From positions 29,583,456-29,647,455 of the forward strand of contig OZ024875.1 in NCBI GenBank assembly GCA_964017185.1: a DNA stretch of 64,000 bases, read 5' to 3'. The stretch comes from Rugalucina vietnamica. Its lineage: Eukaryota; Mollusca; Bivalvia; Lucinida; Lucinidae. Made by a program: the position numbers and the translations under genes. The notes under the pieces are model-generated. The model was not told where the DNA came from. It saw only the letters and a list, made by a program, of their open reading frames with translations, and did not search any database. Positions 9,128 through 28,117 of the stretch are shown one piece after another (within the stretch, counting starts at the first letter, position 1; every line of letters starts with the position of its first letter).

Positions 9128-9263
9128 CCATCAGGAAAACATGTCCGTGAAATGTATACCCCCTTGAACCTCGCTTTTATATAGCAAAACTGGGGTACTT
9201 AGGGGTATACCTATTTTTCTTATTTTTGCTCCAACACATAGATTGTGGGCGGTTCTAACTAGT
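9128..9263. mobile_element. Snap-back MITE family A, left arm split by TRIM 2
   Basis: Arm from ATCAGGAAAACATGTCCGTG to GGCGGTTCTAACTAGT. Its partner arm, TACCCACAATCTATG onward, is at 11309-11350 on the far side of the TRIM. Confidence 0.65.
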
Positions 9264-9320
9264 TCTTACTAATATGAAAATTCGTAACTAAGAAATGATG
9301 CATAGCTTGAAAAAAATCCC

Positions 9321-9393
9321 ACGTCCCAGATGGGATTCGAACCCGAATCGCCGGGGTAGAAATCCAGTGCTCTAACCACTGAGCCAAAGAGTC
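9321..9393 (-). other. tRNA-like segment in TRIM 2, left repeat (tRNA-Arg UCU-like)
   Basis: The minus strand reads GACTCTTTGGCTCAGTGG (A-box TGGCTCAGTGG), an anticodon-loop-like ATTTCTA, and GGGTTCGAATCCC (B-box). It resembles tRNA-Arg(UCU) but its acceptor and anticodon stems pair poorly, so I do not call it a functional tRNA gene. Confidence 0.6.
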
Positions 9394-9494
9394 GACTCCC
9401 TGACGCAGTATGTCAAAGATTGCACTTATATGATACATTGTATCGAATAGCTGTGCTATTTATAGAAGCTACGCATCATAGATCTCGAATGAAT

Positions 9495-10868
9495 GAGGGT
9501 CTGGATGGGGGGTCCTGGTATTCACTAATCACTAAAAATTTAGCCATTTATTCACTGTCATTAAAATTTTGGCTTATTCATTAAAATTAGCTCGATTATT
9601 CATTAAAATATGATAATTACTAGTCATGCCTTTTTCACCCAGCTAATATCCATAAACATATAGGTGTTCCCCACCTAAGGCATCCCTATCTCAAGCCACA
9701 AGGACTAGTTCTATGATATTAAATTGTAAACTGCTGAGTGCAACCTTGATAGTATTAACATCTTGAGAGAAGCATATAATACTCATTACTCTGCTAGACC
9801 ACAAAGCCTCATAGAAACTTTCCGAAATAGAATACCAATTGTTTTTAGCAAAGTATAATCCCCTCCACCTTAAATACTGAATACACCCTAAGTTTTACCC
9901 TGAATCTTTCTCTTCAGTTATGAATACCATGGTTATTTAAGAAAAAAATGAAACTTCAGGGGTAAAAGTTATGATAAAATGCCGTTGTTTTTATTTAAAC
10001 AAATTAGCATAGAAGTACTATGTGATGTATCATGGATTTGTGCTTGTGCCTGATTGTACAATACATTTTATTAATGTTTTAAATACCGAGCAAGCGAAGC
10101 GAGCGAGGAAAAAAAATATGTAGCTCCATATAAATAAGATAGACTTGCATTAACCTTAGTGCTGCCTTGTTTCTGTTTGCAAAAGACACTATAATTATGA
10201 TCTGTCATATAAAAAAGTGGGGTAATAGAATAAAAAAGAAAATAGATATACATAAGCAAACAAAACAGTGAAATAGTATCTGGCTCAGTAAACATCCAGA
10301 ATGATTTATTTTTCTCTGCCTTCAAATGCATGCACGGATCCAGAAAATTTTCTCAGGGGGTCCAAATTCCCCAGAGGGGGGGGGGGGGGGGGGGCGGGTC
10401 CGCAGCCCCTGCCCCCCCCCCCCCCCACCCCCCCCCCCTCTGGATCCGCCCATGAAATGAAGCATTTCTTTTTCAATTGATCCATGAGGTGAGCCCCTAC
10501 ATGCTTGGCTTCCAGACATATGTCTTTCCAAACATTCAAGGATTTCTGAAATATGAATACAACATTTGAACTTAATCGGGTCTCGGGGCGTCCAGATCCC
10601 AGGAAAAAATGAAATTCTGGAATGTCAGGGAGGCCATCTAAGACAATTCCATGGCCAAATTTTAGCATATTCATTATTCTTTAAAATGTTATTATTCACT
10701 ATTCATTATATTACTCTGCTATTCATTAAAAATTTACATTTATTCATTATTCTTTAGGACCTCATTATTCACTAATCATTAAAAATTTTGCTCTTTATTG
10801 AAATTATTCACACTCATTAAAACTTTTAGGCCATTATTCATTAATCATTATACCCCATCCAGACCCTC
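9495..10868. mobile_element. 1.37 kb TIR element inside TRIM 2
   Basis: Inverted ends GAGGGTCTGGATGGGG (9495-9510) and its complement (10853-10868), with ATGAAT duplicated on both sides (9489-9494, 10869-10874). The interior near the ends is full of degenerate ATTCATTAAAATTT repeats. It holds an inner G/C-homopolymer hairpin (10330-10455). No transposase. A 6 bp duplication does not point to one superfamily. Confidence 0.65.
10330..10455. repeat. Inverted repeat with long G and C homopolymers
   Basis: Ends ACGGATCCAGAAAA and its near-complement TCTGGATCCGCCCATG bracket a run of ~18 G followed by runs of ~15 and ~9 C. This is a foldback that could form a very stable hairpin. Frames here give spurious poly-Gly/Pro proteins. 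GGATCCAG-type ends are common in animal MITEs. Confidence 0.55.
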
Positions 10869-11111
10869 ATGAATGTGTGGTGCAATGGGACATAACACAC
10901 CCCCATTTCGAGGAAGTAATCATTTATGATTACGAGAATGTCATTATAATGATTAAATGACTCAAATGGTCCATCCCGGACGAGCCCCCATCTTCTTCTC
11001 CCTTCTTCCTGTTAAAGTTCTAAACCGGTGGCTCCAGCATTGTCGCACTGATAATCTTACGAATATGAAAATTCATAACTAAGAAGTGATGCATAGCTTG
11101 AAAAAAATCCC

Positions 11112-11184
11112 ACGTCCCAGATGGGATTCGAACCCGAATCGCCGGGGTAGAAATCCAATGCTCTAACCACTGAGCCACAGAGTC
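11112..11184 (-). other. tRNA-like segment in TRIM 2, right repeat
   Basis: Same segment as in the left repeat, nearly identical, with intact A-box and B-box (GGGTTCGAATCCC). Its presence in both terminal repeats shows it is part of the element and not a chance neighbour. Confidence 0.6.
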
Positions 11185-11956
11185 AACTCCCTGACGCAGT
11201 ATGTCAGAGATTGCACTTATATGATACATTGTATCGAATAGCTGTGCTATTTATAGAAGCTAGGCATCATAGATCTCGAATGAATGAGTGGTGCAATGGG
11301 ACATAACATAGTACCCACAATCTATGTTTTGGAGCAAAAATAAGAAAACCATCACAATTTTTCTACTGAAATTTTCCAGTTTTTACGACTTAGGAAAAAT
11401 CTGTTTATCACATGGGCATGTTTTCATAATGCAAAGCCATCATCTGGAAGAATCTGATCGTAAATTTCATTACAGAATGCGCTGCATTGCAAAAAAAAAA
11501 TATTTTGCGGCTTCTTCCCACACAAAAGAGGCTTTTGGATTTAGACACAATTTATACATACACAGGTGAACAGAATTTATGTATCAGCATGTTGTGTTTT
11601 GTCAAACCAGACTCACATAGATTCTAACACAGTCTCTAACCTAGTCAATAGCTACATTTTAATATCATAAGCAGCTGAAAGCAGAGTACTACAGTCATGC
11701 CATGAAAACACAGTTACACTTTAAGATCCTTTAAGGTAAATGTATATCAATTCAATAAAGTCACGCAAGCATATCCAATAGCTCAGTATGACTGATCAGT
11801 TGTTACTTGTTTGCAGCATGATACAATGATAGTACAATTATAAAACCTGAGTTGGTTTATCTGTGTCTAAGCAGTCTAGTCAAAAACTCTAAAGATTTTA
11901 TTTCTCATGATACAGCATATACACAATTTATAAAACACTATCTATCCTCCCAACTG

Positions 11957-26388: not shown

Positions 26389-26731
26389 AGTGCAGTGATA
26401 TATTGAGTGATATTTCACTGGACGGATTAGCGTGACGTTACTTTGCGCCGTTTTGACGCCATTTTGATTAAATCATGACGTCAGCTATCCCATAAGTCAC
26501 GTTACCTTGACGTTAGACGGTGTAACGTCATTTCAACGCGTTCAAAACGTAACAAATATATGTAAACATTTGCGGTACTTGGCGGGATTCCTTCAGTGCA
26601 ATTGTAACAGGTGAAAAAATGCTAATCACCTTTTTGCCCCGGCCGAGGATCGAACCAGGGTCTCCTGCGTGCTAATCCAACACTCTGTTGCGTCGCAGTA
26701 AAAGCCGACTTGTACCGCAAGGCGATACATA

Positions 26732-27793
26732 GAGGATATTTGCTTTTTTGAGGTGAATACCAAATATATTTCATCGAGTGAGTTGAAAACATCAGAATTT
26801 TCACGAGTGCGCAGCACGAGTGAAAATTTTTATGTTTTCAACTCACGAGATGAAATATATTTGGTATTCACCGAAAAAAAGCAAATTTTCTTTTTATTTT
26901 ATACAATACACGGGCATTTTCCAATTCACAAGGCAGGCGGTGAAAATGCAAAAACCAAAAATTTTTGAAAACACAAATAATTTTGGTACCACATTGTTCC
27001 TTACGTTCTAACTAAGAAAATGAATACCCACACTTTATGTTTTCGTTCATAAATAACGGAGTTATAGGCGTTTGAATTTCTGAAGTGAGACACATTTTAT
27101 GACGTCAAGTAAATGGAAACGTCAGAAGTAATCCAAAATCTACAGTGAAGATATATAGGCTGATATCAATCACTAGTGTAGTGACTTTTGATATCAGTGA
27201 GATTTGATATCAGTGAAATTTCATATCAATGAAAATACCAATTTTATCAAGTTTTGATATACATTGGTTTTCACTGTAAAGTATAAAATAAAAGTGTTTA
27301 TTATATGGCAAGTGATGAAATATAGAGAAATATGTATTAAATATAACCAATATTTGAAAAAGTTATATTTTCACATGTGAAAATATAAAAAAGTTATATT
27401 TTCTTATATTTTCACATGTGAAAATATAAGATTTGGGAATACGCAAATTACGATTCACCGTTTCATTTCTAATTTATACATAACTTAATTTTATAATCTA
27501 TGCTATTGTTGACGCAATGAACGTTCACACACATTAGCGACGTAATGACGTGACGCAATGACGTCATTTAAGATTTTGACGTCATATGCTTTAGCGCGCA
27601 ACGTTACAATGACTACATGCAATATAATAAAAAGAAAATTCAAGTTTTTGTCGTGAATATGAGTATTATTTCATCTCGTGAAGTGAAAAATTATATATTT
27701 CATTCGTGCCTTCGGCACTCATGAAATATAAAATTTTTTCACTTCACTCAATGAAATAAAACTCATATTCACTCCAAAAACTTGAATATCCTC
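26732..27793. mobile_element. 1.06 kb palindrome-rich DNA element inside the 3' repeat of TRIM 1
   Basis: It starts GAGGATATT and ends AATATCCTC, with TA on both sides (26730-26731, 27794-27795). Inside are two strong snap-back segments: 26742-26884 (arms around GGTGAATACCAAATATATTTC) and 27645-27787 (arms GAATATGAGT and TTTCACTTCAC). Removing it rejoins the terminal repeat, as the intact copy at 28 kb confirms. A related right end occurs near 63805-63815. Confidence 0.65.
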
Positions 27794-27918
27794 TATGTAT
27801 TATACCTAACACTACTACATATTCCCCCTCCATTTTCGATTCGTCCCCGAATCTCAATTAGACATTCACGAATCTAAATTCGACACGGATGTGCTCCGAG
27901 CCATCGAATGGGTCATTT

Positions 27919-27933
27919 TACGTTGGGCGCCAA
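27919..27933 (-). other. Candidate primer-binding site of TRIM element 1
   Basis: The minus strand reads ATT, then TGGCGCCCAACGT, directly after the end of the 5' terminal repeat. LTR elements prime minus-strand synthesis from a tRNA 3' end (…CCA) paired here, so a TGG start at this place is expected. Confidence 0.65.
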
Positions 27934-28117
27934 ATTGTAACAGGTGAAAAAATGCTAATCACCTTTTTGCCCCGGCCGAGGATCGAACCATGGTCTCCTG
28001 CGTGCTAATCCGGCTTGTACCGCAAGGCGATACAAGTGTGTATTATACCTAACACTACTACACAATGGCGGAAAAGTTAAAGAAACTGAAGGTTTAAAAT
28101 AATTTTATCTAGTTTAT

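Follow-up and report, generated by a model that had tools for sequence, protein, structure and literature searches.

A miniature LTR retrotransposon with a degenerate, very probably tRNA-derived segment in its terminal repeats in the bivalve Rugalucina vietnamica

We analyzed a 64,000-nucleotide stretch of the genome of the lucinid bivalve Rugalucina vietnamica (the window; contig OZ024875.1 of assembly GCA_964017185.1, positions 29,583,456 to 29,647,455), in which a minus-strand element spanning positions 26603-28062 consists of two long terminal repeats (LTRs) around a short interior. This element is very probably a non-autonomous LTR retrotransposon, a terminal-repeat retrotransposon in miniature (TRIM), of the published Helenus kind, with a tRNA-derived segment in its LTRs. 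It adds to the LTR elements linked to RNA polymerase III (Pol III), which for animals rest on one 2024 study within the literature searched.

The coordinates given by a sequence-only reading of the window proved exact, and the features it had listed, namely the direct repeats, the primer-binding site (PBS), the purine tract, the flanking CAAT and a tRNA-type box B, are all present in the sequence (Table 1). The LTRs have TG...CA ends. The interior starts with ATTTGGCGCCCAACGT, which holds the PBS (TGGCGCCCAACG at 27932-27921, minus strand), and ends with AAAATGGAGGGGGAATA, which holds the polypurine tract (PPT); it is too short for a protein domain. Most mapped LTRs of the family are 154-156 bp long, and the 28 alignment columns that are absent from the 5' LTR in the window correspond to the expected place of box A. 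A typical full copy of the family measures about 427 bp, with LTRs of 155 bp and an interior of 116 bp. The 3' LTR in the window is split by a 1,066-bp insertion.

The 127-bp LTR and the interior were used as queries against the genome (1.09 Gb, 47 contigs). The LTR search gave 42 matches (best 40 of 572 first-look candidates scored) and the interior search 40 matches (best 40 of 193). The 60 fetched loci represented 49 distinct places, which were classed with a natural 156-bp LTR as the query, hits of about 60 bp or less being discarded. LTR-interior-LTR arrangements were found at 34 places, single LTRs at 8, and cut or other forms at 7. An exact 4-bp duplication flanked 28 of the 34 elements, a 5-bp duplication 2, and none was present at 4; the 34 include a tandem LTR-I-LTR-I-LTR (C6:39681610) and one place that is actually an inverted arrangement (C9:57615588). 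Seven of the 8 single-LTR places also showed a 4-bp duplication, and at the eighth (L012) a PBS follows the LTR, which is hence no solo LTR. In addition, a 22-base pattern across the PPT/LTR junction, allowed up to 1 mismatch, had 115 genomic occurrences, and one of 22 bases across the LTR/PBS junction had 23; neither reversed control pattern occurred. These results uphold the TRIM reading, with its short LTR-interior-LTR copies bearing a PBS, a PPT and 4-bp duplications. The outcomes that the sequence-only reading had named as speaking against it, that most copies would be solo repeats with long target-site duplications or that no other locus would have the PBS-interior-PPT arrangement, did not occur. 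The two LTRs were identical (156/156) in 3 of the 34 elements, which suggests recent movement of the family.

At the inverted arrangement (C9:57615588-57616279), the U5 ends point outward, about 220 bp of other DNA lies inside, and CGTA is present on both sides. One further locus (L076) was rejected as a family copy, being only a fragment of LTR end and interior start within 27-bp repeats.

The tRNA-type segment of the LTR was examined in the family and in a sister family (L094, L093; 76 matches, best 40 of 655 candidates scored). Box B (GGTTCRANNC) is present in 63 of the 71 LTRs of the 34 elements, including the three with identical LTRs; when one natural LTR was shuffled 5000 times with its dinucleotide composition preserved, the motif turned up on either strand in 24 cases. 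For the 48-nt stretch preceding box B, comparisons were made with six tRNA or tRNA-like sequences of the same genome, with 500 shuffles for each. In five of the six comparisons, the best alignment was gapless and kept an equal distance to box B (TAGAGTGTTGGATT...), its score being reached by 0, 4, 11, 16 and 85 of the 500 shuffles. The sister LTR is 149 bp long and identical to the 156-bp family LTR in 121 of 157 alignment columns. It has CAGCGACGTGG at the place of box A (2 mismatches to TRGCNNAGYGG), a pairable TTCGC-TTAGCAC-GCGGG at the place of the anticodon arm, and the same box B, GGTTCGATCC. Because box B is retained in the sister family, together with a box A closer to the tRNA form and an anticodon arm able to pair, we read the LTR segment of the window family as tRNA-derived and degenerate, mainly through this sister family; by its anticodon loop the segment is perhaps tRNA-Ala(AGC)-like. 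The hairpin immediately upstream of the segment was fully paired in 56 of 67 LTRs that had been picked by the motif at its 5' side, and by eye the sister family has a similar hairpin with G-U/G-C exchanges. No 5S family was found among the Rfam matches of the LTRs.

The primer was examined at 51 distinct LTR/interior junctions, at 34 of which the LTR is followed by TGGCGCCCAACGTAAAATGACC, which matches tRNA-Lys over 13 nt. The full 18-nt TGGCGCCCAACGTGGGGC was observed at 4 of the 51, three of these loci having been chosen by that very pattern, so that the count gives no frequency. At L091, an 18-nt PBS is followed by a return to TGACCC, as expected if only the PBS had been replaced by a copy of the primer. 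Another locus (L092, C3:47612544-47612881) is a palindrome of LTR, TTTGGCGCCCAACGTGGGGCGCCAAA and inverted LTR between TTGA duplications, which looks like plus-strand strong-stop DNA that stopped at PBS base 18 and folded back on itself. A locus of the sister family (L093) has the same kind of architecture with an unreadable duplication.

In addition, an exact pattern for CCA-tailed tRNA-Lys was found at two places genome-wide, both fused to the LTR end of the sister family. At the first (L097, C15:5553480-5553980), ARAGORN reads a complete 76-base tRNA-Lys(CTT) including CCA, located on the strand opposite to a shortened sister LTR, directly after ...CCTGTTACATT; no 4-bp duplication was seen there. 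At the second (L098, C11:34445330-34445530), a partial tRNA-Lys(CTT) is joined to the sister LTR end. These junctions, as far as sequence can tell, indicate a primer captured in the genome. Taken together, the 18-nt PBS copies, the fold-back palindrome and the captured tRNA-Lys are strong indications of priming by mature tRNA-Lys(CTT). For the sister family this evidence is direct; for the window family it runs through the shared PBS. Captured tRNA-Lys copies of this kind point to the primer without experiment.

Several observations weigh against a TRIM with a tRNA-derived segment of the Helenus kind. In 47 of the 63 LTRs with box B, CAA replaces the GG of tRNA in box A, CGG being found in 1 of 63, and box A is degenerate even in the copies with identical LTRs. 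L085, the sole clearly canonical tRNA among the six compared (72 bits), gave a score that was matched by 210 of 500 shuffles, and the five other sequences resemble by eye the LTR of a second TRIM in the window, described below; the comparison is therefore weak on its own. Rfam found no tRNA in the family LTRs at E values up to 5, 10 and 10, and ARAGORN called none in the 49 loci given to it of the 60 fetched, nor in five further sequences (L090-L094). The segment does not fold better than shuffled RNA, as 169 and 95 of 200 shuffles folded as well. It is in the sister family, not in the window family, that the captured tRNA copies occur, and no helper element was identified here. A canonical tRNA inside the LTR is thus rejected, in the absence of any Rfam or ARAGORN call. 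On L093 and L094, 37 Rfam matches at E values up to 5 were taken as chance: none reached the gathering score, and they were mostly microRNA-type models on perfect hairpins, with no tRNA among them. Of the tRNA-type promoter that the sequence-only reading had assigned to the LTRs, the tRNA origin of part of the LTR and box B hold; transcription by Pol III is a possibility against which the degenerate box A, its deletion from the 5' LTR in the window, the lack of tRNA calls and the T-run between box B and the PBS all speak.

How such an element would be transcribed depends on the order of signals in the LTR. A run of at least five T is present in the last 35 nt of 30 of the 34 first-listed (5') LTRs and typically ends 11 nt before the LTR end, and a TATA-like GGTATAATA lies at LTR positions 14-22. 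The tRNA-derived segment may recruit TFIIIC and Pol III at least weakly. The R region would begin with transcription close to the hairpin and extend as far as the T-run. Pol III starting near the segment would mostly stop at the T-run of the 5' LTR, before the PBS, and full-length RNA would therefore need read-through, or a start by RNA polymerase II (Pol II) at the TATA-like GGTATAATA. A tentative and rather unlikely extension of this scheme is that the Pol III module makes a short LTR-only RNA rather than the genomic RNA, the full-length RNA being rare read-through or a Pol II product and the T-run setting the R/U5 border. Transcribed from near the hairpin as far as the T5-T6 run, such an RNA would be about 90-100 nt long and end about 11 nt before the LTR end. 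The same layout, a tRNA-like part followed by T6-T7 and the remaining LTR, is found in the second TRIM. On this view such TRIMs, with primer-captured and fold-back copies preserved in the genome, would offer a fossil record of steps in tRNA-primed reverse transcription. The proteins would be supplied in trans by a Gypsy-type element, as the 4-bp duplications and the tRNA-Lys PBS suggest.

The same signals also bear on the possibility, to be taken seriously if short of probable, that the segment is a relic in a lineage in which Pol II now drives transcription from the TATA-like box and Pol III has no part in making the genomic RNA. The decay of box A, including that in copies with identical LTRs, the TATA-like GGTATAATACAC in nearly all aligned LTRs, the T-run near the end of most 5' LTRs and the failure of Rfam and ARAGORN to call a tRNA all agree with this explanation. 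It accounts less readily for the retention of box B in the family, its three elements with identical LTRs included, and in the sister family; by eye there is no AATAAA signal in the aligned LTRs, and Cassandra, a plant TRIM, is described as Pol III-run in two articles (PMC10886601, PMC10853983). The young copies of the window family are suited to a direct test of which polymerase transcribes such elements.

It is improbable that the window TRIM is an internally deleted form of an autonomous element carrying these LTRs. TRIMs can originate in this way (PMC10886601), and at L012 a family-type LTR is followed by other DNA. However, what follows the PBS at L012 is the LTR start of another large element, which occurs in pairs 11.4-13.3 kb apart; the interior of this locus was accordingly rejected as an autonomous partner, and L012 (C3:69643093, minus strand) represents either a chimera or two insertions side by side. 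Among the fetched loci, which comprise only the best candidates scored, none showed a coding copy with the family LTR, no search aimed at one having been made. A tRNA-derived short interspersed element (SINE), or a SINE inside unrelated repeats, mistaken for an LTR element is hardly credible: it would explain the tRNA-like box B and the short copies, but not dozens of copies that have TG...CA ends, a PBS, a PPT and 4-bp duplications or take solo and tandem LTR forms, nor the fold-back and primer-capture products, which LTR elements typically leave when their reverse transcription starts from a tRNA primer. Within the sampled family, the anatomy of the 34 elements refutes a SINE, A-tails or other 3' tails not having been scanned for.

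Table 1. Features of the TRIM in the window (position 1 is the first letter of the window)
Feature	Position	Strand	Basis
Target-site duplication CAAT, left	26599..26602		sequence
Target-site duplication CAAT, right	28063..28066		sequence
5' LTR, 127 bp, deleted form without box A region	27936..28062	-	repeat comparison, LTR alignment
Interior, 116 bp	27820..27935	-	genomic matches (40 listed)
PBS TGGCGCCCAACGT, of tRNA-Lys type; 13 nt long, against 18 nt in certain other copies	27920..27932	-	LTR/interior junctions
PPT GGAGGGGG, G-rich, 4 nt before 3' LTR	27824..27831	-	sequence and junction count
3' LTR, first piece	27796..27819	-	repeat comparison
3' LTR, second piece	26603..26729	-	repeat comparison, LTR alignment
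Later insertion in 3' LTR, inverted ends TAGAGGATAT...ATATCCTCTA, not part of the TRIM	26730..27795		repeat resembling a DNA transposon or miniature inverted-repeat transposable element
Box B GGTTCGATCC, 5' LTR	27980..27989	-	sequence, motif scan
Box B GGTTCGATCC, 3' LTR	26647..26656	-	sequence, motif scan
tRNA-derived segment of 3' LTR, box A position degenerate	26647..26698	-	LTR alignment, tRNA comparison
T6 run of 5' LTR, downstream of box B and ahead of PBS, candidate Pol III terminator	27947..27952	-	sequence
T6 run of 3' LTR	26614..26619	-	sequence
10-bp hairpin CTTGTATCGC-CTT-GCGGTACAAG, just upstream of tRNA-derived segment	28014..28036	-	motif scan; similar one in sister family

The insertion in the 3' LTR has long terminal inverted repeats. 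Among the matches listed, a portion of about 570 bp is found again at more than 30 places, with 97-98% identity.

The second TRIM of the window is located at 11308-9264 on the minus strand (9260-11312 with flanks), with ACTA on both sides. Its LTRs are 254-257 bp long (TGTTATG...GTAAGA), and the interior measures 93 bp in two other copies (L082 and L083). The PBS, TGGGGGCTCGTCCGGGAT, is presumably of the tRNA-Pro type. The element also carries TATAAATA and a T6-T7 run. Its LTR is tRNA-Arg-like, with both box A (TGGCTCAGTGG) and box B (GGTTCGAATCC) intact; an insertion of about 1.37 kb, itself with inverted ends, interrupts the second LTR. In the window copy, a tRNA is called by Rfam in each LTR (39.5 and 33.2 bits) and by ARAGORN in one of them, and in six fetched loci neither Rfam, at the gathering score, nor ARAGORN called any. 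The genome search gave 128 matches, many of them tandem (best 40 of 1536 candidates scored), and the second TRIM is apparently more abundant than the first (1536 against 572 first-look candidates). It is the better example of what the sequence-only reading described. Four of the five tRNA matches listed for the genome resemble its LTR by eye (63 of 123,296 first-look candidates scored), and TRIM LTRs of this type can crowd tRNA predictions.

Outside the window, C47:12236-13576 holds mitochondrial COX1, in which 9 TGA codons are read through and the frame is open under table 5. The reading frames upstream of it on C47 are presumably an extended COX2 and ND4L.

Among known systems, the bivalve biv-TRIM likewise occurs in tandem and solo forms. 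As described (PMC6934838), it has repeats of 202-218 bp, an interior of 77-80 bp, a PPT that is mostly GGGGAGA and no unambiguous PBS. The window family, set apart from it by description, has LTRs of about 155 bp, a 116-bp interior, the PPT GGAGGGGG and a clear tRNA-Lys PBS; biv-TRIM was rejected as its identity on these sizes and the PPT. Ajax of nemerteans belongs to the TRIMp3 group and is similar in length (421-434 bp), whereas its LTR sequence is 5S rRNA-derived, its duplications are 5 bp and its PBS is of the tRNA-Leu type. Cassandra shares with the window TRIM a sequence derived from a Pol III gene in its LTRs as well as tandem arrays; by description, it differs in that this sequence comes from 5S rRNA rather than from a tRNA and in its occurrence in plants. 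The sequence-only reading had proposed an animal counterpart of Cassandra with a tRNA-type promoter, which was right in kind but not new, as such elements were published in 2024 as Helenus/TRIMp3 (Kojima, 2024; PMC10886601).

According to that article, Helenus/TRIMp3 comprises TRIMs whose LTRs contain sequence derived from tRNA, present in fungi, animals and one plant, with 51 families in five pteriomorph orders. Animal Helenus elements have 4-bp duplications, and a Gypsy helper is argued for them; the PBS of bivalve families corresponds to tRNA-Lys, His, Ile, Pro, Glu or Ser, and most families have a box A of TRGCY...YGG and a box B of GGTTC, Pol III transcription itself being unproven for Helenus (PMC10886601). 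The likeness drawn here is one of description rather than of consensus sequences, and in box A the window family is degenerate, whereas the sister family nearly meets the Helenus form. The window TRIM shares with Helenus the tRNA-derived LTR sequence, the PBS and PPT, the 4-bp duplications of the animal families, the tRNA-Lys PBS of some bivalve families and the GGTTC box B, and its family, like Helenus, includes solo LTRs and tandem arrays, the latter represented in Helenus by LTR-11_DR (PMC10886601).
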